NCBI GenBank assembly: GCA_038049695.1
Contig: CP142456.1
Location: 80,747,422 to 80,811,421 of the forward strand
Reading direction: 5' to 3'
Origin: Cinnamomum chago
Lineage: Eukaryota; Streptophyta; Magnoliopsida; Laurales; Lauraceae
Length of the DNA stretch: 64,000 bases
A program made the position numbers and the translations under genes. A model generated the notes under the pieces. The model had not been told where the DNA came from and made no database searches. It saw nothing but the letters and a program-made list of their open reading frames with translations. Of the stretch, positions 1,923 through 64,000 are shown piece by piece; the stretch's first letter is position 1; each line of letters begins with the position of its first letter.

Positions 1923-1927
1923 ATATC

Positions 1928-21325: not shown

Positions 21326-21333
21326 GTAGAGAG

Positions 21334-32303: not shown

Positions 32304-34916
32304 GTTGATTACAAGATTGCAAAATCTTTTGTGTCATTGCTCTAGATTAGATACATGATAACACTCAATGCTTTTAAATTTTCTTTCCCAAATGTGCTCT
32401 CTTAAGGGCCCCTCTACTTGCATGGAATTGAATTTTTAAGAATTTATTATCAAGTGAATCACACCGATGATCATTAAAGACTATGAGTGATGAAAGATTT
32501 AAGGATGGAGTTGTAGACATGAGCAAATTGCTTTAATAAAGTGATATCTCGGATTTTATTCTTTAATGATTGGGATGATATTTGATGACCATTTATATAT
32601 TTCTACTTTTATTTATGGGGAACCATGTATATTAGAAGGACTAGAAACTGAATTCACACGTGTCATTTGCCAAAGTCAGCTAGTGTGATTTTTTCTCTCT
32701 AATCATATCATATGGGGGATCACTAGATATGGGCTACAAGAAAAAACACAACTATCGATTCTTTCATTCTATTTTCTGTTAATTGGAAATGGAAATGCCT
32801 TGCAACTTTATTTGGACACTCACTCAGCTTTACCATTGCTGGAATCGGCGGTAAACTCGTTACTTTCCAGATTTCCTTCTCTCTGAGAGGAGGAAAACCG
32901 GAAATTGCAGGTATACCGCGGCGGAAATATTGAAAACCGATTTTTTAGCCTTTTCTTTCCTCCTTTTATGATAATTTGAAATGGAAAGGCCTCCCGACTT
33001 TATTTGGACACTCACTAAGCTTTACCGCTGCTGGAATCGGCGGTAAACTCGCATTTTCCAGTTTTCCTCCTCTCTGAGAGGAGGAAATCTGAAAACTGCA
33101 AGTATACCGCGGATACATAAGGCGGAAATCTCGAAAACCCATTTTTTAGCCTTTTTTCCTTCTTTTACTTTACTGTGGGTCACGGGTCGGGGCTTGGTTC
33201 ACAAAATGATGGATAGACATGTGTGAATAACAATTGGATGAAATAATATCAAATCACAATAAACACACAATTAATCGTAAATTTATTTTACCGTTGAAGT
33301 GAAGTAAATGGTCAACATAAGAGAGAACAAAATTTAGGATGTAGTAGAATTAGAAGGTGAGAGAGTAGCATTTTTATTTCTTCTCCTAAAAAGGAGAGTA
33401 TTTTCTGTGTTTGTAAGTGAGCTCATGGATTGGGCTTTGGGTATGGGGTTTAGTTATTAATAGATTGGCCGTGCTCGGGTTATTTATTTATTTATTTGCA
33501 CTTAGTGCTTGAGAGCTGGAATCCCCGTTCGGCCAAAATATATATAGATATATTTATGAGGGAGGGTGGAAGCAGTGATGCGAGGACTCAAACCCATGAT
33601 CTCTCACAGCTGAGCTGGCGTACGACTAAGGATGTAAATGTGTCCCCGATTCTCCGATTACGCCGAGGTTCCGACCCGTTAAAACCGGGTTTGGGTCCTT
33701 AATAATGCCCCAATAAAGAAATGGGTTTGGGTCCGGTTCCACCTTGGTTCGGACCCGTGGACCCGATACCCAACATATTACCTCAATTTAGGACCTGGAT
33801 CTAGACCTGTCCCATATATTGTTCTAGTTCCAATTCCGGAGACAAGGATTCAGTTCCGAAACGGTTTCAGGTCCGGATCAGGTTCCACCTTCTCTTTCTT
33901 ATTTCACTTGTTATTTAGCCCATGCATTGAACATCGTTTTCGCTAGTCCTAAAGTGAGAATGCAGCCCATGACAATTATGTATGTGTTTGAGTATCTCAT
34001 TGCCATGCACAACCTAAATTTCCCGAGAAATCTCCCAACTAAATATATCTTTGGTTCTACGAGTTTATTGACTCTTAATACATGGTGCAGAATCGTTACC
34101 ATAAAAAACCAAAGATCCTAATATCTACGATCGAGAATATACGTGAAACCAACAGAACCTTCACTTCAACCGGACAAAAAAAAAACAAAAAGAGCCTATA
34201 CTCGCAATCATGTAGGGTTCCAAAAGGGTAACCGATTACCCAGATGTTTCGACCCGTAAAGAACCGGGTCTGGAACCTATTCTATGTTCCGCTTCATAAA
34301 CGGGTCTGCATTCGGAACATAATTTAGGTTCTGATTGATAAACGAGTTCGGGTCCATTTAGGTTTCGACCCGTGGAGCCGGGACCCGGCATATGAGTCTT
34401 TGATAATGCAAATTGTACCTCAAAATTAACTCTTTTTTTTTTTTTCATTTTTACGTACAATATTAGCCGTTGTGGACTTGACGCACTGTTATAAGCTGAA
34501 TGCTATGCTTATTTTAGGAGACATGAAGAATAAAGATAAATTAGAATCGATTTTGGAAAAAGGATTCCAGCCCTCTAGGTAGACCCGAATCCGGGTTTTC
34601 CTATCGGAACCGGGTCTGGAACCAACAAAACAAGTTACGAGTCAAAACCGGATTCAGAATCGGAACCGTTATTCAGAAACGGGTCCGAGTCCACTATTGT
34701 TCCGATCCGGAACCGTTCCGTTTGCAGCCCTATAAACATGACGTAGTAGTCAACACATCACTGCCTTCTGTGCAGGTAGGCGACTGTGTGGTGTTTTGCT
34801 ACGGTCCTTAAATAGTTATCGAGCTTGATTTGACCAGTTCCATCAGTCATTCGACTTTCTGGTTAGGTCCAGAGAGCTTCCAAATCTAAGCACGTCAACA
34901 AAAATAAAGCTGAGAT
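32304..34916 (+). repeat. Macrosatellite unit 1 (left edge)
   Basis: 2613 bp. The most divergent unit, lacking about 60 bases in the hAT-like segment (33627-34732). It has the CGGCCAAAATATAT subtype before the tRNA-derived piece. Homology to other units fades left of about 32298. Confidence 0.93.
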
Positions 34917-37900
34917 GTTGATTACAAGATTGCAAAACCTTTTGTGTCATTGCTCTAGATTAGATACGTAATAACACTCAATGCTTTTAAATTTTCTTTC
35001 CCAGATGTGCTCTCTTAAGGGCCCCTGTGTTTGCATGGAATTGAATTTTTAAGAATTTAATATCAAGTGAATCACACCGATGATCATTAAATACTACGAG
35101 TGATGAAATATTTAAGGATGGAGTTGTAGACAGGAGCAAATTGCTTTAATAGAGTGATATCTCGGATTTTATTCTTTAATTATTGGGATGATATTTGATG
35201 ACCATTTATATATTTCTACTTTTATTTATGGGGAACCATGTATATTAGAAAGATTAGAAATTGAATTCAACACGTGGCAATTGCCAAAGTCAGCTGGTGT
35301 GATTTTTTTCTCTCTATTCATATCATATGGGGGTTCACTAGACATGGGCTACAAGAAAAAACGCAACTATTGATTCTTTCAATCTATTTTATGTTAATTA
35401 GAAATGGAAAGGCCTTGCGACTTTATTTGGACACTCACTCAGCTTTACCACTGCTGGAATCGGCGGTTAACTCGTTACTTTCTAGATTTCCTCCTCTCTG
35501 AGAAGAGGAAAACCGGAAATTGCAGGTATACCATGGCGGAAATATTGAAAACCGATTTTTTAGCCTTTTCTTTCCTCCTTTTATGATAATTCGAAATGAA
35601 AAGGCATTGTAACTTTATTTGGACACTCACTAAGCTTAACCGCTGCTGGAACCGGCGGTAAACTCGCATTTTCTAGTTTTCCTCCTCTCTGATAGGAGGA
35701 AATCTGGAAACTGCAGGTATACCGTGGATACATACGGCGGAAATCTCGAAAACCCATTTTTTAGCCTTTTTTTTCCTTTTTTTCCTTTATTGTGGGTCAC
35801 GGGTCGGGGCTTGGTTCACAAAATGATGGGTGGACATGTGTGAATAACAATTGGATGAAATAATATCAAATCACAATAAACACACAATAAATCGTAAATT
35901 TATTTTACTGTTGAAGTGAAGTAAATGGTCAATATAAGAGAGAACAAAATTTAGGATGTAGTAGAATCAAAAGGTGAGAGAGTAGGATTTTTATTTCTTC
36001 TCTTTAAAAGGAGAGTGTTTTCTCTGTTTGTAAATGAGCTCATGGATTGGGTTTAGGTATGGGATTTAGTTATTAACAGATGGGCCATGCTTGGGTTATT
36101 TATTTATTTATTTGCACTTAGTGCTTGAGAGCCAGAATCCCCGTTCGGCCAAAATATATATGTAAGTCCATGGGGATCCGAACCCTAGAGGGGGGGTGAA
36201 TAGGGTGAGCTCCAATTATGACCAATTTTAACAAATTTAACTTCTTTAAAACAAACTAGTCACAAGTGATGATTAATCATACAAGATGCGGAAGCTAACA
36301 AAAGAATCACCACAAAGCAATCACCATCACACAAGGATTTATAGTGGTTCGGCCTCAATGCCTACATCCACTACCGGCTTGTGATCCAACACCCCACCGG
36401 ATTTCCACTATTTATGCTTTTCAATAGGCTAAGCAATAACCTTTACAATATGCTTTCCAAGGCTAAGCAATAACCTTACATTGATGTTTTTCAAGGCTTA
36501 ACATCAACCTATCCATTATGCTTTTATAGGCTAAGCAATAACCTCTTCAACCACAAGGTTGGTTATCTCTCTAAATTAGTGTCTATAATACACTTGATGG
36601 AGATTCTATTTAGCTCAATACAATGCCTCTTAAATAGGCGGATATGGAAGTGAAAAAACTAATACACACTCACACTATGAATGCAAAGATGAAAGTATAT
36701 GAAGTGTGTGTGTGTGGTCCTCAATCATTTTGAAAATGAAAGTTCATAAATGTATGCCTAAGGCTTTTGAAAGTTTTGGCTCATAAAACATTTATGATTG
36801 AGGATATAATGCAATCACATGTTAAAAGTAACAACTTGTTAATGATATCAAAGTTACACAAGTTGTATGAAATGGATTAGCTCTAAACATGTGATGCATA
36901 GGGATGTCAATCAAATCATCAATGAAGCTCAAAACATAAAAATAGATTTGATTGAAATTAGGGGACAAATCATATGTAATTATAAAGACAACTTGAAAAA
37001 GATTTACCAATCAAAGTAAGGCAAGTTGTGAAACATTAAAACAATAATACACATATGATTTGTAATGATGTTGAATCCAAAACATAAGATACATTTGAAA
37101 GAGATTTTCTTATGATGGAAAACAACAACCAAAGATTCAACAAAGTATATGAATCATGTTACATATTTCATTAACATGATCTACTTAGATTTACCAAAGA
37201 TAAAGTACTACTTTGATGAATCAATGGTGATGTATCCAAAACAATAGATCTATTCAAAATATAACACATGCTAAGGATACAACAAATCATAGATTAACAT
37301 GTTACAAAGATTTACCAATGATAAAACAAAACATGAAAACATATGATTTGTAAAGAAGTTGAATCCAAAACATAAGTTAATTTTGAAAGAGATGTTCTTA
37401 TGATGGAAAACAACAATCAAAGATTCAACCAAGTATATGGATCATGTTACATATGATTTACCAAAGTTCTTTCATTAACATGATCTACTTAGATTTACCA
37501 AAGTTAAGTACTACTTGGATTGAATCATGTGATGTTGTATCCAAAACAATAAATCAACTCAAAACATAAAATATGTTAAGGACACAACACAAACATAGTT
37601 TAACATGCTAGAAATGATTTACCAAAAATAAAACAAAGCATGAAAACATATGATTAAGGAAGGAAGAGCCTACTTGGTGGTTTAACTTCATTAATCCAAG
37701 CTTTAGCTTTCCTAATCATCCCCTTCATCCCTTGGTTCTTTTCCCTTTTGATATGCCTCAAATCCTCTCAAGGAGGGGCTAAAAATTCCCAACTTTTGGC
37801 AAGGGAAAGAACTCATATTTATAGCAAAAAGTTGCCAACGGCTAGTTCTCGGTCGACCGGGAAACAGGTCTCGGTCGACCGGGAACACACAACGGTCGGA

Positions 37901-39751
37901 TTTCTGACCGTTGGTGCGCCAGGCCAATTTCTGCTGCAGTGTGCTCGGTCGACCGGGACCTCTGCGCCGGTCGACCGGCGACACTGCGGGGACCAAAAAT
38001 TTCCACTTTTGCATTTTCAAACCTTTTCTTTGTGGAACTATTTGGGCCATATAATCAAGCTTTCAAACATGTTTTAAATCATTCTAAGGGTTTTAAAACA
38101 TGGAACATAAAAAGCCTAAAACATTTTGAAAGATTTAAAACTCATAGGCTAGCTTGATTTTCTAAAACTCTTTTCTAAAACAAATGCATCCAAGATTAAA
38201 AACAAATCATGCATAAAACAAAATCTTAAAAAAATGCATGAATAAATCAAGATTTCAAGTTTATCTAAAACAATGCAAGTGTGTGAATCAAATGATGCTA
38301 GAATGAAATGCATCCATCAAATTGCAATCTATAAAAACCCTAACAATATATAGATTTATTTATGAGGGAAGGTGGGAGCAGTGATGCGAGCTAGGACTCA
38401 AACCCATGACCTCTCACAGCTGAGCTGGCGTACAATTAGGGATGAAAATGGATCCCTGATTCTCCGATTTCGTGGAGGTTCCGACCCGTTAAAACCGGGA
38501 CTGGGTCCTTAATAATGCCCCGATAAGTAAATGGGTTTGGGTCCGGTTCCACCTTGGTTCAGACCTGTGGACCCGATACCCAACATATTACCTCAATTTT
38601 CTAAAATGTCTCCTGAAAATCGTATTTTTTTAATATCATTCTCTACCTAGACCCGAACCTGGATCTAAACCCGACTCATATATTGTTCTGGTTCCGATTC
38701 CAGAGACAAGGATTCGGTTCAGAAACGGTTCCGGGTCCGGATCCGGTTCCACCTTCTCTTTCTTTTTTCACTTATTATTTAGCCCATGCGTTGAACATCG
38801 TTTTTACTGGTCCTAAAGTGAGAATGCAGCCCATGACAATTATGTATGTGTCTGAGTATCTCATGGCCATGCACAACCTAAATTTCCCGAGAAATCTCCA
38901 CACTAAATACATCTTTGGTTTTATGAAATTATTGACTCTTCAATACAGGGTGCATAATTGTTACCATAAAAAACCAAAGATCCTAATATCTACGATCGAG
39001 AATGTACGTCAAACCAACAAAACCTTCATTTCAATCGGACAAAAAAAAAAGCATATACTCGCAAACAGTTAGGGTTCCAATCGGGTTTCCGATTACCCAA
39101 AAGTTCTGACCCGTAAAAAACTGGGTCTGGAACCTATTTTCGGTTCCGCTTCATAAACGGGTCCGGGTCCGGAACCTAATTTAGGTTCCAATTGATAAAC
39201 GGGTCCGGGTCCAAAAAGGTTCCGACTTGTCGACCCGGGACCCGACATATATGAGCATTTGATATTGCAAATTGTACCTAAAAATTAACTTTTTCTAGAC
39301 ATTTTTACGTACAATATTAGCGGTAGTGGACTTGACGCACTGCTATAAACTGAATGGTATGCTTATTTTAGGAAACATGAAGAATAAAGATAAATTAGAA
39401 TATATTTTGGAACAGGATTTCTGTCCTCAAGGTAGACCCGGATCTGGGTTTTCCTATCGAAGCCAGGTCTAGAACCAACTAAACAAGTTGTTGGTCAAAA
39501 CCGGATTTAGAACCGGAACCGTTATTTAAAAACTGGTATGAGTCCCCTATGGTTCCGATCCGGAACCGTTCCGTTTGCAGCCCTACAAACATCACTGCCT
39601 TTTTGTGCAAGTAAGCGACCGTGTGGTGTTTTGCTGCGGTCCTTAAATAGTTATCGAGCTTGATTTGACCAGTTCCATCAGTCGTTCGGCTTTCTGGTTA
39701 GGTCCAGAGAGTTCCCAAATCTAAGCATGTCAACAAAAATAAAGCTGAGTT
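34917..39751 (+). repeat. Macrosatellite unit 2 (with solo LTR insertion)
   Basis: 4835 bp including a 2185-bp solo LTR and its 5-bp duplication, so about 2645 bp net. The solo LTR splits the TATATATAG tract before the tRNA-derived piece. The hAT-like segment is 38437-39585. Confidence 0.93.
36161..38345 (-). mobile_element. Solo LTR A, inverted, 2185 bp
   Basis: The element runs from TGTAAGTCCATGGGGATCC to AACCCTAACA, with TG/CA ends in either reading, and is flanked by ATATA (36156-36160 and 38346-38350). It is the reverse complement of the LTRs at 40832 and 56210. No internal retrotransposon sequence is present, so it is a solo LTR left by recombination between two LTRs. The end motif CACCCCCCCTCTAGGGTT suggests a Copia element (Angela/SIRE style, from memory). 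Confidence 0.85.
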
Positions 39752-40831
39752 GTTGATTACAAGATTACAAAACCTTTTGTATCATTGCTCTAGATTAGAT
39801 ACGTGATAACACTCAATGCTTTTAAATTTTCTTTCCCAGATGTGCTCACATAAGGGCCCCTCTGTTTGCATGGAATTGAATTTTTAAGAATTTATTATCA
39901 AGTGAATCACGCCGATGATCGTTAAAGACTACGAGTGATGAAAGATTTATGGATGGAGTTGTAGACAGGAGCAAATTGCTTTAATAGAGTGATATCTCGG
40001 ATTTTATTCTTTAATTACTGGGATGATATTTGATGACCATTTATATATTTCTACTTTTATTTATGAGGAAGCATTAATATTAGAAAGACTAGAAATTGAA
40101 TTCAACACGTGTCAATTGCCAAAGTCAGCTTTTGTGATTTTTTTTCTCTCTATTCATATCATATGGGGGTTCATTAGACATGGGCTAAAAGAAAAAAACA
40201 CAACTATTGATTCTTTCAATCGATTATATTGTAATTAGAAATGGAAAGGCCTTGCGACTTTATTTGGACATTCACTCAGCTTTACCGCTGCTGGAATCAG
40301 CGGTAAACTCATTACTTTCCAGATTTCCTTCGCTCTATGAGGAGGAGAATCGGAAATTGTAGGTATACCGTGGCGGAAATATTGAAAACTGATTTTTTAG
40401 CTTTTTCTTTCCTCCTTTTATGATAATTTGAAATGAAAAGGCCTTGCGACTTTATTTGGACACTCACTAAGGTTTAACGCTGCTGGAATCGGCGGTAAAC
40501 TCGCATTTTCCAGTTTTCCTCCTCTGTAATAGGAGGAAATCTGGAAACTGCAGCTATACCGCGCATACATACGGCGGAAATCTCGAAAACCCATTTTTTA
40601 GCCCTTTTTTTCTTCTTTTACTTTATTGTGGGTCATGGGCAGGGGCTTGGTTCACAAAATGATGGATGGACATGTGTGAATAACAATTGGATGAAATAAT
40701 ATCAAATCACAATAAACACAATAAATCGTAAATTTATTTTACTGTTGAAGTGAAGTAAATGGTCAATATAAGAGAGAACAAAATTTAGGATGTAGTAGAA
40801 TCAAAAGGTGAGAGAGTAGGATTTTTATTTC

Positions 40832-42735
40832 TGTTAGGGTTTTTATAGATTGCAATTTGATGGATGCATTTTCATTCAAGCATCATTTAATTTACACACT
40901 TGCATTGGTTTTAAATAAACTTGAAATCTTGTTTTATTCATGCATTGCTTTTAAGATTTGTAAAAGTATTGATTTATGCATGATTTGTCTTTTTATCTTG
41001 GATGCATTTGTTTTAGAAAAGAGTTTTCAAGAAATCAAGCAAGCCTTTGTTTTAAAAGTTTTGAATCTTTTTAGGCTTTTTATGTCATGTTTTAAAAACC
41101 ATTAGAATCTTTAAAACATGTTTTCCAAGCTTGATTTAGTGGCCAAAAGGTCCCCCAAAGAAATACCTTTAAAATGTGAAAAGTTGAAATTTTTGCAAAA
41201 AAGGGGGTGGCCCGGCAGTGTCGCCGGTCGACCGGCGCAGAGGTCCCGGTCGACCGGGAACACTGCAGCAAAAAATTGCCTGGCGCACCAACGGTCAGAA
41301 ATCCGACCGTTGTGTGTTCCCGGTCGACCGATACCTGTTTGCCGGTCGACCGAGGACTAGCCGTTGGCAACTTTTTGCTATAAATATGAGTTCTTTCCCT
41401 TGCCAAAAGTTGGGAATTTTTAACCCCTCCTTGAGAGGATTTGAGGCATATCAAAAGGGAAAAGAACCAAGGGATGAAGGGGATGATTAGGAAAGCTAAA
41501 GCTTGGATTAATGAAGTTAAACCACCAAGTAGGCTCTTCCTTCCTTAATCATATGTTTTCATGTTTTGTTTTATCATTGGTAAATCTTAATAACATGTTA
41601 ACCTATGATGTGTTGTATCCTTAGCATGTGTTCTATTTTGAATAGATCTATTGTTTTGGATACATCACCATTGATTCATCAAAGTAGTACTTTATCTTTG
41701 GAAAATCTAAGTAGATCATGTTAATGAAATATGTAACATGATTCATATACTTTGTTGAATCATTGGTTGTTGTTTTTCCATCATAAGAAAATCTCTCTCA
41801 AATGTATCTTATGTTTTGGATCCAACATCATTACAAATCATATGTGTATTATTGTTTTAAAGTTTCACAACTTGCATCACTTTGATAGGTAAATCATTTT
41901 CAAGTTGTATTTATAATTACATATGATTTGTCCCCTCTTTTCAATCAAATCTATTTTTATGTTTTGAGCTTCTTTGTTGATTTGATTGACATCCCTATGC
42001 ATCACATGTTTAGAGCTAATCCATTTCATACAACTTGTGTAACTTTGATATCATTAACAAGTTGTTACTTTTAACATGTGATTGCATTACATCCTCAATC
42101 ATAAATGTTTTATGAGCTAGAACTTTCAAAAGCCTTAGGCTTACATTTATGAGCTTTCATTTTCAAAATGATTGAGGACCACACACACACACTTCATGTA
42201 CTTTCATCTTTGCATTCATAGTGTGAGTGTGTATTAGTTTTTCACTTCCATATCCGCCTAATTAAGAGGCATTGTAATGAGCTTAATTGAATCTCCATCA
42301 AGTGTATTAAAGACACTAAATTAGAGAGATAACCAACCTTGTGGTTGAAGAGGTTATTGCTTAGCCTATAAAAGCATAATGGATAGGTTGATGTTAAGCC
42401 TTGAAAAACATCAATGTAAAGGTTATTGCTTAGCCTTGGAAAGCATATTGTAAAGGTTATTGCTTAGCCTATTGAAAAGCATAAATAGTGGAAATCCGGT
42501 GGGGTGTTGGATCACAAGCCGGTAGTGGATGTAGGCATTGAGGCCGAACCACTATAAATCCTTGTGTGATGGTGATTGCTTTGTGGTGATTCTTTTGTTA
42601 GCTTCCGCATCTTGTATGATTAATCATCACATGTGACTAGTTTGTTTTAAAGAAGTTAAATTTGTTAAAATTGGTCATAATTGGAGCTCACCCTATTCAC
42701 CCCCCCTCTAGGGTTCGGATCCCCATGGAATTACA
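40832..42735 (+). mobile_element. Solo LTR B, 1904 bp
   Basis: Starts TGTTAGGGTTTTTATAG, ends CCCCATGGAATTACA, and is flanked by ATTTC (40827-40831 and 42736-42740). A TATA box TATAAATAT lies at 41379-41387. This copy is about 280 bases shorter than A and C because an internal repeated stretch near its middle is present fewer times. Confidence 0.87.
41225..41352 (+). promoter_or_regulatory. Paired palindromes upstream of the LTR TATA box
   Basis: Four CGGTCGACCG palindromes occur at 41225, 41247, 41321 and 41343, in two pairs each with a 22-base start-to-start spacing. A fifth dyad, ACGGTC...GACCGT, lies between the pairs (about 41291-41310). The last site is about 27 bases before the TATA box. 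The same layout is in LTR A (37850, 37872, 37946, 37968) and LTR C (56591, 56613, 56689, 56711). A role as a protein-binding or enhancer site is inferred. Confidence 0.6.
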
Positions 42736-44832
42736 ATTTCTTCTCTTTAAAAGGAGAGTGTTTTCTCAGTTTGTAAGTGAGCTCATGGATTGGGCTTTGG
42801 GTATGGGGTTTAGTTATTAACAGATGGGCCATGCTCGGGTTCTTTATTTATTTATTTGCACTTAATGCTTGAGAGCCGGAATCCCCGTTCGGCCAAAATA
42901 TATATAGATATATTAATGAGGCAAGGTGGGAGAAGTGATGCGAGGACTCAAACCCATGACCTCTCATAGCTGAGCTGGCGTACGACTAGGGATGAAAATG
43001 GGTCCCCGATTCTCCGATTACGCGGAGGTTCCGACCCGTTAAAACCGGGTTTGGGTCCTTAAAAATGCCCCGATAAGTAAATGGGTTCGGGTTCAATTCC
43101 ACCTTGGTCCGGACCCGTGGACCCTATACCCAATATATTACCACAATTTTCTAAACTTTCTCCTGAAAACCATATTTTTTTTAATATCATTCTCTACCTA
43201 GACCCGGACCTGGATCTAAACCCGTCTCATATATTGTTCTGGTTCCGGTTCCAGAGACAAGGAATTGGTTCTGAAACGGTTCGGGGTCCGGATCCGGTTC
43301 CACCTTCTCTTTCTTATTTCACTTGTTATTTAGCCCATGCGTTGAACATCGTTTTTGCTGGTCCTAAAGTGAGAATGCAGCCCATGACAATTATGTATGT
43401 GTCTGAGTATCACATGGCCATGCACAACCTAAATTTCCAGAGAAATCTCCACATTTAATACATCTTTGGTTCTATGAAATTATTGACTCTTTAATACAGG
43501 GTGCAGAATTGTTACCATAAAAAACCAGAGATCCTAATATCTACGATCGAGAAAGTACGTGAAACCAGCAGAACCTTCATTTCAACAGGACAAAAAAAAA
43601 GCCTATACTCGCAAACATTTAGGGTTCCAATCGGGTTTCCGATTACACAGAAGTTCCGACCAGTAAAAAACCGGGACTGGAACCTATTTTCGGTTCCGCT
43701 TCATAAACGGGTCCGGGTCCGGGTCCAGAACCTAATTTAGGTTTCGATTGATAAATGGGTCCGGGTCCAAATAGGTTTCGACCTATGGACCCGGAACCCG
43801 GCATATGAGCATTTGATATTGCAAATTGTACCTAAAAATTAACTTTTTTGAGACATTTTTACGTACAATACTAGCGGTAGTGGACTTGAGTCACTATTAT
43901 AAACTGAATGGTGTGCTTGTTTTAGGAAACATGAAGAATAAAGATAAATTAGAATCGATTTTGGAACAGGATTTCTGTCCTCTAGGTAGAACCGGATCTG
44001 GGTTTTCCTATTGAAGCCCGGTCTGGAACCAACTAAACAAGTTGCTGGACAAAACCGGATTCAGAACCGGAACCGTTATTGAAAAACTGGTCCGAGTCCC
44101 CTATGGTTCCGATCCGGAACCGTTCCGTTTGCAGCCCTGCAAACATCACTGCCTTTCTGTGCAAGTAAGCGACCGTGTGGGGTTTTGCTGTGGTCCTCAA
44201 ATAGTTATCGAGCTTTATTTGACCAGTTCCATCAGTCGTTCGGCTTTCTGGTTAGGTCCAGAGAGTTTCCAAATCTAAGCATGTCAACAAAAATAAAGCT
44301 GAAATGTTGATTACAGGATTGCAAAACCTTTTGTGTCATTGCTCTAGATTAGATACGTGATAACACTCAATGCTTTTAAATTTTCTTTCCCAGATGTGCT
44401 CTGTTAAGGGCCCCTCTGTTTGCATGGAATTGAGTTTTTAAGAATTTATTATCAAGTAAATCACGCTGATGATCATTAAAGACTACGAGTGATGAAAGAT
44501 TTAAGGATGGAGTTGTAGACCGGAGCAAATTACTTTAATAGAGTGAAATCTCGGATTTTATTCTTTAATTACTGGGATGATATTTGATGACCATTTATAT
44601 ATTTCTACTTTTATTCATGGGGAAGCATGTATATTAGAAAGACTAGAAATTGATTTCAACACGTGTCCATTGCCAAAGTCAGCTTTTGTGATTTTTTTCT
44701 TTCTATTCATATCATATGGGGTTTCATTAGACATGGGCTACAAGAAAAAACACAACTATCGATTCTTTCAATCTATTTTATGCTAATTAGAAATGGAAAG
44801 GCCTTGCGACTTTATTCGGACATTCACTCAGC

Positions 44833-44859
44833 TTTACCGCTGCTGGAATCGGCGGTAAA
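44833..44859. repeat. Inverted repeat in the subrepeat (representative)
   Basis: TTTACCGC (44833-44840) and GCGGTAAA (44852-44859) form an 8-bp stem with an 11-base loop. The same pair occurs once in each roughly 195-bp subrepeat, twice per unit, through most of the array. Confidence 0.75.
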
Positions 44860-45524
44860 CTCGTTACTTTCCAGATTTCCTCCTCTCTAAGAGGAGGAAA
44901 ACCGGAAATTGCAGGTAAACCGTGGCGGAAATATTGAAAACCGATTTTGTAGCCTTTTCTTTCCTCCTTTTATGATAATTTGAAATGAAAAGGCATTGCG
45001 ACTTTATTTGGACACTCACTAACCTTTACCGCTGCTGGAATCGGCGATAAACTCGCATTTTCCAGTATTCCTCCTCTGTGAGAGGAGGAAAACTGGAAAC
45101 TGCAGGTATACCGCGGATACTTACGGCGGAAATCTCGAAAACCCATTTTTTAGCCTTTTTTTCCTTCCTTTCCTTTAAAGTGGGTCACGGGTCGGGGCTT
45201 GGTTCACAAAATGATGGATGGACATGTGTGAATAACAATTGGATGAAATAATATCAAATCACAATAAACACACAATAAATCGTAAATTAATTTTACAGTT
45301 GAAGTGAAGTAAATGGTCAATATAAGAGAGAACAAAATTTAAGATGTGTTAGAATCAAAAGGTGAGAGGAGCATTTTTATTTCTTCTCTTGAAAAGGATA
45401 GTGTTTTCTCTGTTTGTAAGTGAGCTCTTGGATTGGGCTTTGGGTATGGGGTTCAGTTATTAACAGATGGGCCATGTTCGGGTTGTTTATTTATTTATTT
45501 GCACTTAGTGCTTGAGAGCCGGAA

Positions 45525-45629
45525 TCCCCGTTCGGCCGAGATATATATAGATATATTTATGAGGGAAGGTGGGAGCAGTGATGCGAGGACTCAAACCGAT
45601 GACCTCTCACAGCTGAGCTGGCGTACGAC
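45525..45629 (-). mobile_element. tRNA-derived SINE-like piece in the unit (representative)
   Basis: On the minus strand the order is CCAGCTCAGCTGTGAGAGG (box A-like), then GGTTTGAGTCC (box B-like; in this unit the first bases differ slightly), then an AT-rich tail. The same piece lies just left of the hAT-like segment in every unit. It is either a SINE 5' part or an old tRNA-like sequence, and no complete cloverleaf is seen. Confidence 0.45.
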
Positions 45630-52118: not shown

Positions 52119-54326
52119 TTGGGGTTCATTAGACATAGGCTACAAGAAAAAACACAACTATCGATTCTTTCAATCTATTTTATGTTAATTAGAAATGGAA
52201 AGGCCTTGCGACTTTATTCGGACATTCACACAACTTTACCGCTGCTGGAATCGGCGGTAAACTCGTTACTTTCCAGATTTCCTCGTCTCTGAGAGGAGGA
52301 AAACCGGAAATTTCAGGTTAACCGTGGCGGAAATATTGAAAACCGATTTTGTATCCTTTTCTTTCCTCCTTTTATGATACTTTGAAATGAAAAGGCATTG
52401 CGACTTTATGTGGATACTCACTAAGCTTTACCGCTGCTGGAATCGGCGGTAAACTCGTATTTTTCAGTTTTCTTCCTTTGTGAGAGGAGGAAATCTGGAA
52501 ATTGTAGGTATACCGCGGATACTTACGACGGAAATCTCGAAAACCCATTTTTTAGCCTTTTTTTCCTTCCTTTCCTTTATTGTGGGTCACGGGTCGGGGC
52601 TTGGTTCACAAAATGATGGATGGACATGTGTGAATAACAATTGGATGAAATAATATCAAATCACAATAAACACACAATAAATCGTAAATTAATTTTACTG
52701 TTGAAGTAAAGTAAATGGTCAATATAAGAGAGAAAAAAATTAAGGGTGTGGTTGAATCAAAAGGTTAGAGAGTAGCATTTTTTTTTCTTCTCTTAAAAAG
52801 GATAGTGTTTTCTTCGTTTGTAAGTGAGCTCATGGATTGGGCTTTGGGTATGGGGTTCAGTTATTAACAGATGGACCATGCTCGGGTTGTTTATTTATTT
52901 ATTTGCACTTAGTGCTTGAAAGCCAGAATCCCCGTTCGGCCGAGATATATATAGATATATTTATGAGTGAAGGTGGGAGCAGTGATGCGAGGACTCAAAC
53001 TCATGACCTCTCACAGTTGAGCTGGCGTACGACTAGGGATAAAAATGGGTCCCCGATTCTCTGATTATGCGCAGGTTCCGACCCGTTAAAACCGGGTCTG
53101 CGTCCTTAATAATGCCCCGATAAGTAAATGGGTTCGAGTTCGGTTCCACCTTGGTTCAGTCCCATGGACCCGATACCAAACATATTACCTCAATTTTCTG
53201 AAATCTCTCCTGAAAATAATATTTTTTTTAATATCATTCTCTACCTAGACCCGGACCTGGATTTAAACCCGTCTCATGTATTGTTCTGGGTTCGGTTCCG
53301 AAACGGTTCCGGGTCCGGATCCGGTTCCACCTTCTCTTTCTTATTTCACTTGTTACGTAGCCCATGCGTTGAACATCGTTTTTGCTCGTCCTAAAGTGAG
53401 AATGCAGCCCATGACAATTATGTATGTGTCTGAGTATCTCATTGCCATGCACAACCTAAATTTCCCGAGAAATCTCCACACTAAATATATCTTTGCTTCT
53501 ACGAAATTATTCACTCTTCAATACAGGGTGCAGAATTGTTACCATAATAAACCAAAGATCCTAATATCTAGGATCGAGAATGTACGTGAAACCAACAGAA
53601 CCCTCATTTCAACCGGACAAAAAAAAAGCATGTACTCGCAAACATTTAGGGTTCCAATCGGGTTTCCGATTACACAGTAGTCCCAACCCGTAAAAAACCG
53701 GGTCTGGAACCTATTTTCGGTTCCGCTTCATAAACGGGTCCGGGTCCAGAACCTAATTTAGGTTCCGATTGATAAATGGGTCCGGGTCCAAATACGTTCC
53801 GACCTGCGGACCCGGAACCCGGCATATGAGCATTTGATATTGCAAATTGTACCTAAAAATTAACTTTTTTGAGACATTTTTACGTACAATACTAGCGGTA
53901 GTGGACTTGACTCACTATTATAAACTGAATCGTGTGCTTGTTTTAGGAAACATGAAGAATAAAGATAAATTAGAATCGATTTTGGAACAGGATTTATGTG
54001 CTCTAGGTAGAACCGGATTTGGGTTTTCCTATTGAAGCGCGGTCTGGAACCAACTAAACAAGTTGCTGGACAAAACCGGATTCAGAACCGGAACCGTTAT
54101 TCAAAAACTAGTCCGAGTCCCGTATGGTTCAGATCCGGAACCGTTCCGTTTGCAGCCCTGCAAACATCACTGCCTTTCTGTGAAAGTAAGCGACCGTGTG
54201 GGGTTTTGTTGCGGTCCTTAAATAGTTATCGAGCATGACTTGACCAGTTCCATCAGTCGTTCGGCTTTCTGGTTAGGTCCAGAGAGTTTCCAAATCTAAG
54301 CATGTCAACAAAAATAAAGCTGAGAT
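52119..54326 (+). repeat. Macrosatellite unit 7 (left end lost)
   Basis: Begins inside the lead block because of the deletion shared with unit 6. The hAT-like segment is 53034-54160 and is shorter by about 20 bases near 53297. Confidence 0.92.
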
Positions 54327-54895
54327 GTTGATTACAGGATTGCAAAACCTTTTGTGTCATTGCTCTAGATTAGATATGTGATAACACTCAATGCTTTTAA
54401 ATTTTCTTTCCCAGATGTGCTCTCTTAAGGGCCCCTCTGTTTGCATGGAATTGAGTTTTTAAGAATTTATTATCAAGTGAATCACGCCGATGATCATTAA
54501 AGACTACGAGTGATGAAAGATTTAAGGATGGAGTTGTAGACCGGAGCAAATTACTTTAATAGAGTGATATCTCGGATTTTATTCTTTAATTACTGGGATG
54601 ATATTTGATGACCATTTATATATTTCTACTTTTATTCATGGGTAAGCATGTATATTAGAAAGACTAGAAATTGATTTCTACACGTGTCAATTGCCAAAGT
54701 CAGCTTTTGTGATTTTATTTTTTTATTCATATCATATGGGGGTTCATTAGACATGGGCTACAAGAAAAAACAAAACTATCGATTCTTTCAATCTATTTTA
54801 TGTTAATTAGAAATGGAAAGGCCTTGCGACTTTATTCGGACATTCACTCAGCTTTACCACTGCTGGAATCGGCGGTAAACTCGTTACTTTCCAGA

Positions 54896-54920
54896 TTTCC
54901 TCCTCTCTGAGAGGAGGAAA
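54896..54920. repeat. Perfect 25-bp palindrome in the subrepeat (representative)
   Basis: Two 12-base arms, TTTCCTCCTCTC and GAGAGGAGGAAA, flank a single central T. Versions of this palindrome occur in both subrepeats of most units. The central base varies between units (for example at 59541 and 62174) while the arms are largely kept. Confidence 0.85.
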
Positions 54921-56209
54921 TCCGGAAATTGCAGGTTAACCGTGGCGGAAATATTGAAAACCGATTTTGTATCCTTTTCTTTCCTACTTTTATGATAATT
55001 TGAAATGAAAAGGCAATGCGACTTTATTTGGACATGTGTGAATAACAATTGGATGAAATAATATCAAATCACAATAAACACACAATAAATCGTAAATTAA
55101 TTTTACTGTTGAAGTGAAGTAAATGGTCAATATAAGAAAGAACAAAATTTAGGATGTGGTAGAATCAAAAGGTGAGAGAGTAGCATTTTTATTTCTTCTC
55201 TTTAAAAGGATAGTGTTTTCTCTGTTTGTAAGTGAGCTCATGGATTGAGCTTTTGGTATGGGGTTCAGTTATTAACAGATGGGCCATGCTCGGGTTGTTT
55301 ATTTATTTATTTGCACTTAGTGCTTGAGAGCCGGAATCCCCGTTCGGCCGAGATATATATAGATATATTTATGAGGGAAGGTGGGAGCAGTGATGCGAGG
55401 ACTCAAACCCATGACCTCTCACAGCTGAGCTGGCGTACGACTAGGGAAAAAAATAGGTCTCCGATTCTCCGATTATGCGCAGGTTCCGACCCGTTAAAAC
55501 CGGTTCTGCGTCCTTAATAATGCCCCGATAAGTAAATGGGTTCGGGTCCGGTCCCACCTTGGTTCAGACCCGTGGACCCGATACCCAACATATTACCTCA
55601 ATTTTCTGAAATCTCTCCTGAAAACCATATTTTTTTTAATATCATTCTCTACCTAGACCCGGACCTGGATTTAAACCCGTCTCATGTATTGTTCTGGGTT
55701 CGGTTCCAGAGACAAGGAATCGGTTCCGAAACGGTTCGGGGTCCGTATCCGGTTCCACCTTCTCTTTCTTATTTCACTTGTTACATAGCCCATGCGTTGA
55801 ACATAGTTTTTGCTCGTCCTAAAGTGAGAATGCAGCCCATGACAATTATGTATGTGTCTGAGTGTCTCATTGCCATGCACAACCTAAATTTCCCGAGAAA
55901 TCTCCACACTAAATACATCTTTGGTTCTACGAAATTATTCACTCTTCAATACAGGGTGCAGAATTGTTACCATAATAAACCAAAGATCCTAATATCTACG
56001 ATCGAGAATGTATGTGAAACCAGCAGAACCTTCATTTCAACCGGACAAAAAAAAAATGCCTATACTCGCAAACATATAGGGTTCCAATCGGGTTTCCGAT
56101 TACACAGAAGTACCGACCCGTAAAAAACCGGGACTGGAACCTATTTTCGGTTCCGCTTCATAAACGGGTCCGGGTCCATAACCTAATTTAGGTTCCGATT
56201 GATAAATGG

Positions 56210-58408
56210 TGTTAGGAATTTTGTAGATTGCAATTTGATGGATGCATTTCATACTAGCATCATTTGTTTTACACACTTATGCATTGTTTTAAGAAATCTT
56301 GAAATCTTGATTTATTCATGCATTGCTTTTAAGATTTGTAAAAGTTTCAATTTATGCATGATTTTCTTTTAAGACTTGGATGCATTTGTTTTGAAGAGAG
56401 TTTTAGAAAATCAAGCTAGCCTATGAGTTTTTAATCTTTCAAAATGTTTTAGGCTTTTTATGGTTAATGTTTTAAAACCCTTAGAATGATTTAAAACATG
56501 TTTTTAAGCTTGATTTATTGGCCCAAAGTTCCACCATAGAAAATCTTTGAAACATGAAAAAGTGGGAATTTTTGGTCCCCGCAATGTCGCCGGTCGACCG
56601 GCGCAGATGTCCCGGTCGACCGGGAACACTGCAGGCAGAAATTGCCTGGGGCTGTCTAACGGTCAGAAATATAGCCGTTGTGTGATCTCGGTCGACCGAG
56701 ACATGTTTGCAGGTCGACCGAGGACTTGCCGTTGGGCACTTTTTGCTATAAATATGAGTTCTTTCCTTTGCCAAAAGTTGGGATTTTTAAGCCCCTCCTT
56801 GAGAGGTTTTGAGGCATATTCAAGGGAAAATAACCAAGGGATGAAGGGGAGCATTAGGAAAGCTAAAGCTTGGATTAATGAAGTTAAATCACCAAGTAGG
56901 CTTTACTTTCCTTAATCATATGTTTTCATGCTTTGTTTTATTTTTGGCAAATCATTTCTAGCATGTTAAACTATGTTTGTGTTGTGTCCTTAACATGTTT
57001 TATGTTTTGAGTTGATTTATTGTTTTGGATACAACACCATATGATTCAATCCAAGTAGTACTTAATCTTTGGTAAATCTAAGTAGATCATGTTAATGAAA
57101 GAACCTTTGAAATTATATGTAACATGATTCCTATACTTGGTTGAATCTTTGGTTGTTGTTTTCCATCATAAGAAAATCACTTTCAAAACTATCTTATGTT
57201 TTGGACTCAACTTCTTTACAAATCATATGTTTTCATGTTTTGTTTTATCATTGGTAAATCTTTAGTAACATGTTAACCTATGATGTGTTGTATCCTTAGC
57301 ATGTCCTATATTTTGAATAGATCTATTGTTTTGGATGCATCACCATTTGATTCAATCCAAGTAGTACTTTATCTTTGGTAAATCTAAGTAGATCATGTTA
57401 ATGAAATATGTAACATGATTCATATACTTGGTTGAATCTTTGGTTGTTGTTTTTCCATCATAAGAAAATCTCTTTCAAATGTATCTTATGTTTAGGATTC
57501 AACATCTTTACAAATCATATGTGTATTATTGTTTTAAAGTTTCACAACTTGCCTTACTTTGATAGGTATATTACTTTCAAGTTGTATTTATAATTACATA
57601 TGATTTGTCCCCTCTTTTCAATCAAATCTATTTTTATGTTTTGAGCTTCATGTTGATTTGATTGACATCCCTATGCTTCACATGTTTAGAGCTAATTAAT
57701 TTCATACAACTTGTAAATCTTTGATCTCATTAACAAGTTGTTACTTTTAACATGTGATTAGCATTTCCTCAATTATAAATGTTTTTGAGCTAAAACTTTC
57801 AAAAGCCTTTGGCATACATTTATGAGCTTTCATTTTCAAAATGATTGAGGACCACACACACACACTTCATGTACTTTCATCTTTGCATTCATAGTGTGAG
57901 TGTGTATTAGTTTTTCACTTCCATATCCGCCTAATTAAGAGGCATTGTAATGAGCTTAATTGAATCTCCATCAAGTGTATGTTAGACACTAATTTAGTGA
58001 GATAACCAACCTTTCGTTGAAGAGGTTATTGCTTAGCCTATAAAAGCATAATGTATAGGTTGATGTTAAGCCTTGAAAAACATCATTATAAAGGTTATTG
58101 CTTAGCCTTGGAAAGCATATTGTAAAGGTTATTGCTTAGCCTATTGAAAAGCATAAATAGTGGGAATCCGGTGGGGTGTTGGATCACAAGCCGGTAGTGG
58201 ATGTAGGCATTGAGGCCTTACCACTATAAATACTTGTGTGATGGTGATTGCTTTGTGGTGATTCTTTTGTTAGCTTCCGCATCTTGTATGATTAATCATC
58301 ACATGTGACTAGTTTGTTTTAAAGAAGTTAAAATTGATTAAAATTGGTCATATTTGAAGCTCACCCTATTCTCCCCCCCTCTAGGGTTCGGATCCCCATG
58401 GACTTACA
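56210..58408 (+). mobile_element. Solo LTR C, 2199 bp
   Basis: Starts TGTTAGGAATTTTGTAG, ends CCCCATGGACTTACA, and is flanked by AATGG (56205-56209 and 58409-58413). It has the same family and orientation as LTR B and sits inside the hAT-like segment of unit 8. The TATA box is near 56745. Confidence 0.87.
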
Positions 58409-58960
58409 AATGGGTCCGGGTCCAAATAGGTTCCAACCTGTGGACCCGGAACCCGGCATATGAGCATTTGATATTGCAAATTGTACCTAAAAATTAACTT
58501 TTTTGAGACATTTTTACGTACAATACTAGCGGTAGTGGACTTAACTCACTACAATAAACTGAATGGTGTGCTTATTTTAGGAAACATGAAGAATAAAGAT
58601 AAATTAGAATCGATTTTGGAACAGGATTTATGTCCACTAGGTAGAACTGGATCTGGGTTTTCCTATTGGAGCCCGGTCTGGAACCAACTAAACAAGTTGC
58701 TGGACAAAACCGGATTCAGAACCGGAACCGTTATTCAAAAACTGGTCCGAGACCCCTATGGTTCCGATCCGGAACCGTTCCGTTTGCAGCCCTGCAAACA
58801 TCACTGCCTTTCTGTGAAAGAAAGCGACCGTGTGGGGTTTTGTTGCGGTCCTTAAATAGTTATCGAGCTTGATTTGACCAGTTCCATCAGTCATTTGGCT
58901 TTCTGGTTAGGTCTAGAGAGTTTCCAAATCTAAGCATTTCAACAAAAATGAAGGTGAGAT

Positions 58961-61596
58961 GTTGATTACAGGATTGCAAAACCTTTTGTGTCATTGCTCT
59001 AGATTAGATACGTGATAACACTCAATGCTTTTAAATTTTCTTTCCCAGATGTGCTCTCTTAAGGGCCCCTCTGTTTGCATGTAATTGAGTTTTTAAGAAT
59101 TTATTATCAAGTGAATCACGCCGATGATCATTAAAGACTACGAGTGATGAAAGATTTAAGGATGGAGTTGTAGACCGGAGAAAATTACTATAATAGAGTG
59201 ATATCTCGGATTTTATTCTTTAATTATTGGGATGATATTTGATTACCATTTATATATTTCTACTTTTATTCATGGGGAAGCATGTATGTTAGAAAGACTA
59301 GAAATTGATTTCAACACGTGTCAATTGCCAAAGTCAGCTTTTGTGATTTTTTCTTTCTATTCATATCATATGGGGGTTCATTAGACATGGGCTACAAGAA
59401 AAAACACAACTATCGATTCTTTCAATCTATTTTATGTTAATTAGAAATGGAAAGGCCTTGCGACTTTATTTGAACATTCACTCAGCTTTACAGCTGCTGG
59501 AATCGGCGGTAAACTCGTTACTTTCCAGATTTCCTCCTCTCGGAGAGGAGGAAAACCGGAAATTGCAGGTAAGCCGTGGCGGAAATATTGAAAACCGATT
59601 TTGTAGCCTTTTCTTTCCTCCTTTTATGATAATTTGAAATGAAAAGGCATTGCGACTTTATTTGGACACTCACTAACCTTTACCGCTGCTGGAATCGGCG
59701 GTAAACTCGCATTTTCCAGTTTTCCTCCTCTGTGAGAGAAGGAAAACTGGAAACTCCAGGTATACCGCAGATACTTACGGCGGAAATCTCGAAAACCCAT
59801 TTTTTAGCCTTTTTTTCCTTCCTTTCCTTTAAAGTGGGTCACGGGTCGGGGCTTGGTTCACAAAATGATGGATGGACATGTGTGAATAACAATTGGATGA
59901 AATAATATCAAATCACAATAAACACACAATAAATCGTAAATTCATTTTACTGTTGAAGTGAAGTAAATGGTCAATATAAGAGAGAACAAAATTTAGGATG
60001 TGGTAGAATCAAAAGGTGAGAGAGCAGCATTTTTATTTCGTCTCTTAAAAAGGATAGTGTTTTCTATGTTTGTAAGTGAGCTCATGGATTGGGCTTTGGG
60101 TATGGGGTTCAGTTATTAACAGATGGGCCATGCTCGGGTTGTTTATTATTTATTTGCACTTAGTGCTTGAGAGCCGGAATCCCCGTTCGGCCGAGATATA
60201 TATAGATATATTTATGAGGGAAGGTGGGAGCAGTGATGCGAGGACTCAAAACCATGACCTCTCACAGCTGAGCTGGCGTACGACTAGGGATAAAAATGGG
60301 TCCCCGATTCTCCGATTACGCGCAGGTTCCTACCCGTTAAAACCGGGTTTGCGTCCTTAATAATGCCCCGATAAGTAAATGGGTTCGGGTCCGGTTCCAC
60401 CTTGGTTCAGACCCGTGGACCCGATACCCAACATATTACCTCAATTTTCTGATATCTCTCCTGAAAATAATTTTTTTTTAATATCATTCTCTACCTAGAC
60501 CCGGACCTGGATTTACACTCGTCTCATGTATTGTTCTGGGTTCGGTTCCAGAGACAAGGAATCGGTTCCGAAACGGTTCCGGGTCCGGATCCGGTTCCAC
60601 CTTCTCTCTCTTATTTCACTTGTTACGTAGCCCATGCGTTGAACATCGTTATTGCTCGTCCTAAAGTGAGAATGCAGCCCATGACAATTATGTATGTGTC
60701 TGAGTATCTCATTGCCATGCACAACCTAAATTTCCCGAGAAATCTCCACACTAAATACATCTTTGCTTCTACGAAATTATTCACTCTTCAATACAAGGTG
60801 CAGAATTGTTACCATAATAAACCAAAGATCCTAATATCTACGATCGAGAATGTACGTGAAACCAGCAGAACCCTCATTTCAACCGGACAAAAAAAAAAGC
60901 ATGTACTCGCAAACATTTAGGGTTCCAATCGGGTTTCCGATTACACAGAAGTCCCGACCCATAAAAAACCGGGTCTGGAACCTATTTTCGGTTCTGCTTC
61001 ATAAACGGGTCCGTGTCCAGAACCTAATTTAGGTTCCGATTGATAAATGGGTCCGGGTCCAAATACGTTCCGACCTGCGGACCCGGAACCCGGCATATGA
61101 GCATTTGATATTGCAAATTGTACCTAAAAATTAACTTTTTCGAGACATTTTTACGTACAATACTAGCGGTAGTGGACTTGACTCACTATTATAAACTGAA
61201 TGGTGTGCTAGTTTTAGGAAACATGAAGAATAAAGATAAATTAGAATCGATTTTGGAACAGGATTTATGTCCTCTAGGTAGAACCGGTTCTCGGTTTTCC
61301 TATTGAAGCCCGGTCTGGAACCAACTAAACAAGTTGCTGGACAAAACCGGATTCAGAACCGGAACCGTTATTCAAAAACTGGTCGGTGTCCCCTACGGTT
61401 CCGATCCGGAACCGTTCCGTGTGCAGCCCTGCAAACATCACTGCCTTTCTGTGCAAGTAAGCGACCGTGTGGGTTTTGCTGCGGTCCTTAAATAGTTATC
61501 GAGCTTGATTTGACCAGTTCCATCAGTCGTTCGGCTCTCTGGTTAGGTCCAGAGAGTTTCCAAATCTAAGCATGTCAACAAAAATAAAGCTGAGAT
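58961..61596 (+). repeat. Macrosatellite unit 9
   Basis: 2636 bp and uninterrupted. The hAT-like segment is 60285-61431. Very similar to unit 10, sharing a shorter TTTATTATTTATTTG tract not seen in units 4-8. Confidence 0.95.
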
Positions 61597-64000
61597 GTTG
61601 ATTACAGGATTGCAAAAGCTTTTGTGTCAATGCTCTAGATTAGATACGTGATAACACTCAATGCTTTTAAATTTTCTTTCCCAGATGTGCTCTCTTAAGG
61701 GCCCCTCTGTATGCTTGGAATTGAGTTTTTGAGAATTTATTATCAAGTGAATCACGCCGATGATCATTAAAGACTACGAGTGAAGAAAGATTTAAGGATG
61801 GAGTTGTAGACCGGAGCAAATTACTTTAATAGAGTGATATCTCGTATTTTATTCTTTAATTATTGGGTTGATATTTGATGTCCATTTATATATTTCTACT
61901 TTTATTCATGGGGAAGCATGTATGTTAGAAAGACTAGAAATTGATTTCAACACGTGTCAATTGCCAAAGTCAGCTTTTGTGATTTTTTCTTTCTATTCAT
62001 ATCATATGGGGGTTCGTTAGACATGGGCTACAAGAAAAAACACAACTGTCGATTCTTTCAATCTATTTTATGTTAATTAGAAATGGAAAGGCCTTGCGAC
62101 TTTATTTGAACATTCACTCAGCTTTACCGCTGCTGGAATCGGCGGTAAACTCGTTACTTTCCAGATTTCCTCCTCTCCGAGAGGAGGAAAACCGGAAATT
62201 GCAGGTAAACCGTGGCGGAAATATTGAAAACCGATTTTGTAGCCTTTTCTTTCCTCCTTTTATGATAATTTGAAATGAAAAGGCATTGCGACTTTATTTG
62301 GACACTCACTAACCTTTACCGCTGCTGGAATCGGCGGTAAACTCGCATTTCCCAGTTTTCCTCCTCTGTGAGAGGAGGAAAACTGGAAACTGCAGGTCTA
62401 CCGCGGATACTTACGGCGGAAATCTCGAAAACCCATTTTTTAGCCTTTTTTTTCCTTCCTTTCCTTTATTGTGGGTCACGGGTCGGGGCTTGGTTCACAA
62501 AATGATGGATGGACATGTGTGAATAACAATTGGATGAAATAATATCAAATCACAATAAACACACAATAAATCGTAAATTCATTTTACTGTTGAAGTGAAG
62601 TAAATGGTCAATATAAGAGAGAACAAAATTTAGGATGTGGTAGAATCAAAAGGTGAGAGAGCAGCATTTTTATTTCTTCTCTTAAAAAGGATAGTGTTTT
62701 CTATGTTTGTAAGTGAGCTCATGGATTGGGCTTTGGGTATGGGGTTCAGTTATTAACAGATGGGCCATGCTCGGGTTGTTTATTATTTATTTGCACTTAG
62801 TGCTTGAGAGCCGGAATCCCCGTTCGGCCGAGATATATATAGATATATTTATGAGGGAAGGTGGGAGCAGTGATGCGAGGACTCAAACCCATGACCTCTC
62901 ACAGCTGAGCTGGCGTACGACTAGGGATAAAAATGGGTCCCCGATTCTCCGATTACGCGCAGGTTCCGACCCGTTAAAACCGGGTCTGCGTCCTTAATAA
63001 TGCCCCGATAAGTAAATGGGTTCGGGTCCGGTTCCACCTTGGTTCGGACCCGTGGACCCGATACCCAGCATATTACCTCAATTTTCTGAAATCTCTCCTG
63101 AAATAATTTTTTTTTAACATCATTCTCTCCCTAGACCCGGACCTGGATTTACACCCGTCTCATGTATTGTTCTGGGTTCGGTTCCAGAGACATGGAATCG
63201 GTTCCGAAACGGTTCCGGGTCCGGATCCGGTTCCACCTTCTCTCTCTTATTTCACCTGTTACGTAGCCCATGCGTTGAACATCGTTTTTGCTCGTCCTAA
63301 AGTGAGAATACAGCCCATGACTATTATGTATGTGTCTGAGTATCTCATTGCCATGCACAACCTAAATTTCCCGAGATATCTCCGCACTAAATACATCTTT
63401 GGTTCTACGAAATTATTCACACTTCAATACAAGGTGCAGAATTGTAACCATAATAAACCATAGATCCTAATATCTACGATCGAGATTGTACGTGAAACCA
63501 GCAGAACCTTCATTTCAACCGGACAGAAAAAAAAGCCTATACTCGCAAACATTTAGGGTTCCAATCGGGTTTCCGATTACACAGAAGTTCCGACCCGTAA
63601 AAAACCTGGTCTGGAACCTATTTTCGGTTCCGCTTCATAAACGGGCCCGGGTCCAGAACCTAATTTAGGTCCCGTTTGATAAATGGGTCCGGGTATAAAT
63701 AGGTTCCGACCTGCGGACCCGTAACCCGGCATATGAGCATTTGATATTGCAAATTGTACCTAAAAATTAACTTTTTCGAGACATTTTTACGTACAATACT
63801 AGCGGTAGTGGACTTGACTCACTATTATAAACTGAATGGTGTGCTTGTTTTAGGAAACATGAAGAATAAAGATAAATTAGAATCGATTTTGGAACAGGAT
63901 TTCTGTCCTCTAGGTAGAACCGAATCTCGGTTTTCCTATTGAAGCCTGGTCTGGAACCAACTAAACAAGTTGCTGGACAAAACCGGATTCAGAACCGGAA
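61597..64000 (+). repeat. Macrosatellite unit 10 (cut by the window edge)
   Basis: 2404 bases of a further unit. Its hAT-like segment starts at 62922 and continues beyond the window, so the array extends to the right. Confidence 0.95.

Follow-up and report, generated by a model that had tools for sequence, protein, structure and literature searches.

Long plant satellite monomers related to transposons, and satellite arrays built in layers, are already known, as far as the portions of the literature cited here extend. The Sobo repeat of wild potato has a 4.7-kb monomer, forms an array of ~360 kb, and shows similarity to the long terminal repeats (LTRs) of a retrotransposon and to genomic DNA (Tek et al., 2005, as summarized in PMC3648361). 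Monomers of potato centromeric satellites are between 979 bp and 5.4 kb long, and of the six, four are related to retrotransposons (Gong et al., 2012, as summarized in PMC3648361). Subtelomeric satellites of plants include khipu, with a unit of 528 bp, and CS-1/HSR1/HJSR, with units of 370–383 bp. In humans, centromeric alpha satellite presents a young core with flanking layers of older repeats (PMC2729386), and the macrosatellites D4Z4 and DXZ4 consist of tandem units of about 3 kb, one of the two being subtelomeric. This article describes a stretch of 64,000 nucleotides from chromosome C6 of Cinnamomum chago (assembly GCA_038049695.1, contig CP142456.1, positions 80,747,422 to 80,811,421 of the forward strand; "the window" hereafter), which carries the left edge of a tandem array of a composite repeat of about 2.64 kb. 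The array very probably belongs to a largely subterminal, non-coding macrosatellite family of this species, in which arrays grow and homogenize locally and keep old units at their edges.

Three things are new in this account: the satellite family, the fact that it has spread in a magnoliid mainly to terminal positions, and a stratigraphy that can be followed unit by unit. No prior description, and no Lauraceae satellite, was found by title or start of abstract among the papers listed in a literature search that did not extend to supplements or subscription papers. The main text of the genome paper (PMC11068913) holds no word beginning with "satellite"; tandem repeats are plotted there in a figure whose content was not seen. 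The growth of satellites is usually blurred by short monomers. In this array its order is readable unit by unit because there are ~100 informative sites per 2.6-kb unit, both edges are assembled, and related arrays provide the ancestral state.

A long tandem array near the end of chromosome C6

The tandem structure is directly visible in the window, where a period of 2637 bp is the peak of both the autocorrelation and the spacing of 20-mers, and where a BLAST comparison with the unit at 48001–50637 tiles positions 32304 to 64000 head to tail, the full units showing 87.8–96% identity. An earlier note on this DNA, made from its letters alone, had proposed ten units of ~2.64 kb that start about 5 kb from a FATA gene and continue past the window. 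The repeat structure, its start at exactly 32304 and its continuation are all borne out, and the count was about right (11 units with partial ones), but 6.3 kb of the span consists of three LTR inserts rather than repeat units. Beyond the window, the array runs on unbroken as far as coordinate 184000 on the window's scale and takes in further LTR inserts. Farther along C6, the unit was matched by 4 of 20 slices of 700 bases (at 81.15, 81.18, 81.21, and 81.23 Mb); the other 16, between 81.25 and 83.5 Mb, gave no match. The array was last seen at C6:81,239,873, a span of ~460 kb from window position 32304. It lies at 95.7–96.3% of the length of C6, at a distance of 3.1–3.6 Mb from where this 84.4-Mb contig ends, and holds about 150 units by our estimate from its length less the inserts seen. 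Long arrays of head-to-tail units of up to a few kilobases define macrosatellites in the source consulted, and this array has that form.

Comparison of 35 full units of the C6 array, with interrupted and shortened units left out, shows that the core is 98.6–100% alike, whereas four edge units are 87.5–98% like the core. Within the core, the units starting at window coordinates 117296, 119935, 122574, and 125213 are 100.0% identical to those starting at 127852, 130491, 133130, and 135769, respectively. A block of four units (10.6 kb) has thus been duplicated, so that several units were copied together, provided that the assembly is correct at that place. Types are also specific to arrays. A tree was built on a segment of ~820 bp from 24 sequences (25 samples, of which two 700-base slices were dropped and the one from C7 gave two sequences), and in it the C6 core is 99–100% alike internally and 85–90% alike to other arrays. 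The outermost full C6 unit, at 33361, is only 89–90% like its own core over this segment and up to 93% like an array on C4. Homogenization within the array and divergence between arrays are therefore both seen for C6, the other arrays being sampled by one or two units each.

Near-identity of this kind invites the objection that a short array was falsely expanded in assembly. Core units are alike enough for an assembler to miscount them, one 10.6-kb block is repeated, and redundancies at 98% identity were removed from the assembly according to the accessible text of the genome paper (PMC11068913), by which the copy number could err in either direction. The same source, however, reports 80x HiFi and 30x Oxford Nanopore (ONT) reads and a single gap in the assembly. 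The edge units are distinct, the inserts carry differing target duplications, and copies of the family lie on seven other chromosomes among the matches listed, several of them in arrays with other unit lengths. A partial artefact of this sort is very unlikely. For the window itself, an artefact is unlikely because its units can be told apart and each insert has a target duplication of its own; the copy number of the core is less certain than the structure of the window.

Edge strata and the probable growth of the array from within

The age structure of the array was read from 99 diagnostic sites, at which seven core units share a letter found in none of ten stretches sampled from other arrays, while at least 80% of those stretches share another letter. 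Edge units had no part in choosing the sites, and the ten stretches that give the ancestral state leave out the old copies fetched from C4:2.87, C6:4.35, and C4:10.28 Mb. All units in the window lie on the plus strand, as delimited by BLAST. The outermost partial unit (32304–33357, unit positions 1581–2637) has the core letter at 3 of 26 scored sites (0.12) and the outermost full unit (33361–35974), which represents the ancestral stratum, at 11 of 96 (0.11). The share rises to 0.35 (35/99) in the unit at 35978–40808, split by a solo LTR into pieces 35978–36161 and 38346–40808, and to 0.50 (49 of 98 scored) in the unit starting at about 40812, whose main piece after an LTR is 42736–45362. Next come two units of an intermediate cohort, at 45364–47999 (0.73; 72/99) and 48001–50637 (0.65; 64/99), the latter being the 2637-bp reference unit. 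Three units at 0.67 follow, one without unit positions 1479–1988 (50639–52764; 52 of 78 scored), one shortened in the subrepeat region (52768–55172; 65 of 97 scored), and one interrupted by a solo LTR (55176–60016, pieces 55176–56209 and 58409–60016; 66/99). A transition unit at 60020–62653 (0.86; 85/99) has the cohort state first and is nearly all core in its last third, the first modern-core unit begins at 62657 and ends at 65289, outside the window (0.99; 98/99), and the series closes at 1.0. The window thus covers the old, decayed left edge of the array, whose young core sets in near 62657.

The left strata are directly seen to be nested. Cases in which a core letter stands outside an ancestral one number 14, against a mean of 119.3 in 2000 within-unit shuffles (standard deviation 5.4, minimum 102). 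Within units, changes of state are unclustered in 8 of the 10 tested, as expected of mutations gathered over time. At the right edge, the core share falls from 1.0 to 0.90, 0.84, 0.83, and finally 0.50. The last piece there, 534 bp long, agrees with the intermediate-cohort units of the left edge at 23 of 25 sites (45364) and 23 of 24 sites (48001), a match reached in 0 of 5000 shuffles in each case; it agrees with the outermost full unit (33361) at 12 of 23 sites and with the first core unit (62657) at 13 of 24. An intermediate type is therefore observed at the far edge as well, and one old cohort seems to stand at both ends of the array, 460 kb apart, with a young core between them.

Because the left strata are nested and the same intermediate type is found at the far edge, the array most likely grew inside itself. 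Several observations weigh against this reading. The core share does not rise at every step inward (0.73 is followed by 0.65), and the row shuffle ignores shared descent and therefore shows nesting and order, not cause or mechanism. State is clustered in unit 60020, which changes in a single block (P 0.004), as a product of crossover or conversion would; unit 62657 has no variation on which clustering could be tested, and against short tracts the test has little power. Less can be concluded from the other three pieces of the right edge (for instance, 31 of 35 sites shared with unit 60020, no better than shuffles). Moreover, the strata come from one array only, and its right edge is represented by the one 534-bp piece.

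The main rival explanation holds that the gradient arises from gene conversion that is strong in the middle of the array and weak at its edges, and that the centre has contributed no net growth. A young centre between old edges fits this account, as do the internal homogeneity of the core and the block-wise switch in unit 60020. Conversion fits less well with derived states that are nested and, in most of the units tested, interspersed rather than arranged in tracts, or with an intermediate type shared by the far-edge piece, or with the duplication of a four-unit block. An origin of the gradient by conversion without growth is consequently regarded as rather doubtful.

Growth inside the array can be set out as a series of proposed steps. 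A composite stretch would have become tandem in the past, and clusters would then have spread to many chromosomes; their locations are observed, and the manner of spread is conjectural. Each array would subsequently have grown and homogenized at its own locus; the most likely routes are unequal exchange and replication-based duplication, whether of single units or of several at once. New copies would arise inside the array and push older units toward the edges, where these decay and where LTR inserts have been reduced to solo LTRs and kept. We infer the molecular process (unequal crossover or re-replication), a heterochromatic state of the array, and any role of its palindromes. A more elaborate version is unlikely, namely that the strata are concentric and time-ordered, produced in bursts from a central focus, with the two palindromic subrepeats of each unit stalling replication and templating multi-unit duplications, and with the same series at both edges.

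Composition of the unit, LTR inserts, and neighbouring genes

The unit is a non-coding composite of a hAT-like segment, other sequence, and palindromic subrepeats. There are two subrepeat copies of ~200 bp per unit, 83% alike, which lie at 50038–50245 and 50232–50446 (plus strand) in the reference unit. Two stretches of the consensus, 41 and 79 bp long, are self-complementary, in agreement with the palindromes proposed in the earlier note, and the DNA fold of the first copy is better than that of 200 out of 200 shuffles (z -2.89). Differences in length among the sampled units are mostly in this region.

The transposon-derived parts that had been proposed fared less well. A segment of ~1.15 kb at 48267–49414 (plus strand) is hAT-like in its ends only, as judged from the terminal letters by eye: these read TAGGGATAAAAATGG and, reverse-complemented, CAGGGCTGCAAACGG, with agreement at 10 of 15 letters, and may correspond to terminal inverted repeats of the Ac type. 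The flanks of the segment differ, with no 8-bp target duplication, and the unit has no frame of transposase length, the longest being 117 amino acids (aa) from stop to stop. A non-autonomous hAT copy would have no transposase frame. No dispersed copy of its 26-base end, with up to one mismatch, was found among the 100 matches listed of 151; 99 of these were on C6 and one on C4, all at satellite places. Candidate counts at first look for two segments of the unit (1759 and 2495) are of one order of magnitude. A large dispersed family is not indicated by them, and diverged relatives would be compatible with this. The tRNA-derived piece suggested earlier, or a tRNA-like head of a short interspersed element (SINE), was rejected, as ARAGORN found none and Rfam gave three matches up to E 5, none of them a tRNA, although a much decayed one would be compatible with these results.

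Subrepeats and kilobase-long units recall the spacers of ribosomal RNA genes, and satellites with spacer homology are known, several plant satellites being derived from such spacers. Derivation of the unit from a 45S rDNA spacer is nonetheless extremely improbable, given that the unit has no match in the one spacer compared (5 kb in front of an 18S gene on C12) and that no Rfam family reaches its gathering score in the window.

Three inserts of 1.9–2.2 kb interrupt the array in the window and were missed in the earlier note. They are solo LTRs of one family, at 36161–38345 (plus strand, target duplication ATATA), 40832–42735 (minus strand, ATTTC), and 56210–58408 (minus strand, AATGG), as delimited by BLAST with flanks read by eye. 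All three have TG...CA ends, a 5-bp target duplication, and no internal region, and they are 84–97% identical to one another over their aligned parts. The possibility that they form part of the satellite unit was rejected because the unit resumes behind each of them with the 5-bp duplication. Their relatives occur as LTR pairs outside the window, and LTRs of the family are dispersed over many chromosomes (84 matches scored of a larger number). The LTRs of inserts near window coordinates 107073, 141555, and 167950, and of a further insert at the right edge, are 99.6–99.9% alike, and these inserts are therefore recent. A single long frame is present in each of two of them (466 and 532 aa); with a CCHC-type zinc knuckle seen by eye, these frames are putatively gag-like. 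The insert at 167950–181189 consists of three LTRs in tandem with internal regions between them (LTR-internal-LTR-internal-LTR), the repeated parts being 99.6–99.9% alike, and possibly arose from exchange between LTRs.

To the left of the array, the FATA gene of the earlier note is supported by thioesterase matches in pieces. Those at 26474–26713 and 27145–27420 match Pfam Acyl-ACP_TE_C, the former having an oleoyl-type thioesterase as its best match; the piece at 21145–21669 has no Pfam match, but its part 21385–21669 is similar to acyl-ACP thioesterases whose structures have been solved. Between the last piece and the array lie about 4.9 kb. An LTR element at 1924–12762, which coincides with the G+C-rich left part of the window, has 663-bp LTRs 98.5% alike, a 1041-aa frame with matches to reverse transcriptase, RNase H, and integrase, and, downstream of that frame, a 49-bp tandem repeat of 8.6 copies (8609–9028). 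Its left LTR is overlapped by an F-box-like frame on the minus strand (902–2008; Pfam F-box and beta-propeller), which a fragment at 17398–17700, also on the minus strand, resembles by eye.

Distribution of the family and comparison with known satellites

The genome was searched with near-exact words, by which diverged copies would be missed, and the matches listed were 100 of 493, 179, 180, 151, and 196 for five patterns and all 28 for a sixth. One 40-mer taken from the unit has 493 exact occurrences genome-wide and none in reverse. Among the matches listed, related copies lie on 8 of 12 chromosomes (C6 together with C2, C3, C4, C5, C7, C9, and C10). None lie on C1 or C8 with any pattern, and none on C11 or C12 with the one pattern that reached these chromosomes, the one with 28 matches. 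Many loci are thus involved, in clusters and arrays and not merely as isolated dispersed copies. The suggestion of a newly formed satellite locus consequently holds for the young core but not for the family, which has copies on those eight chromosomes, nor for the old, decayed edge in the window.

Six of the seven larger clusters (C2, C4, C5, C6, C7, C9, and C10) lie within the terminal 8.5% of their chromosomes, at either end, so that the family is found near the ends of several chromosomes, as subtelomeric satellites are. A binomial probability of 0.00014 for this placement is post hoc, is based on seven self-chosen clusters, and leaves out the small groups at C2:72.56, C3:112.76, C4:2.87, C4:10.28, C6:4.35, and C10:60.30 Mb. 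Exceptions to a terminal location are the C10 cluster, at 58.0–58.3 Mb of 74, and the small groups at C2:72.56, C3:112.76, and C4:10.28 Mb; those at C4:2.87 and C6:4.35 Mb are terminal by the same measure. As to telomeres, the first 600 bases of C1 to C12 are N, and the last 600 of C6 contain neither TTTAGGG nor CCCTAAA. Long-monomer satellites form centromeres in potato (PMC3648361), and the array might accordingly mark a former or present centromere of C6. This is highly improbable for an array at 95.7–96.3% of its chromosome whose family recurs near several chromosome ends. Kinship with the centromere motif printed for C. chago was rejected too, as the motif has no significant match to the unit (best E 1.2); the motif was not mapped on C6.

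Unit lengths are private to arrays, being about 2363, 2617, 2444, 2545, and 2200 bp on C4 and 2637–2640 and 2626 bp on C6. Several arrays with differing unit lengths and in both orientations lie at C4:90.61–96.30 Mb, in the last 8 Mb of that chromosome. On C7 (60646342–60859584), where the unit is ~2.65 kb long, the spacing of a marker word is ~5.3 kb, or every second unit, in much of the array but ~2.66 kb at the far end, and neighbouring units show 92% identity; marker spacing and adjacent-unit identity suggest a dimeric higher-order repeat.

The growth order proposed for the C6 array is open to testing in further trees, both of C. chago and of its genus, and the unit could be of use in Cinnamomum cytogenetics as a marker of chromosome ends. 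Among the satellites described, insofar as the sources cited at the outset portray them, Sobo is similar in its long monomer and its array of hundreds of kilobases. It differs in being confined to one pericentromere, whereas the C. chago family occupies 8 of 12 chromosomes among the matches listed and is mostly terminal, and the LTRs in the C. chago array are later inserts and not part of the unit as they are in Sobo. The long-monomer satellites of potato are centromeric, whereas the C. chago unit does not match the printed centromere motif of its own species. Like khipu and CS-1/HSR1/HJSR, the family forms terminal arrays, but its unit is about five to seven times longer and composite. Alpha satellite, with its 171-bp monomer, is centromeric and short, whereas a 2.6-kb unit with about a hundred diagnostic sites allows strata to be resolved unit by unit. 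The human macrosatellite D4Z4 holds a gene, in contrast to the C. chago unit, which has no frame above 117 aa.

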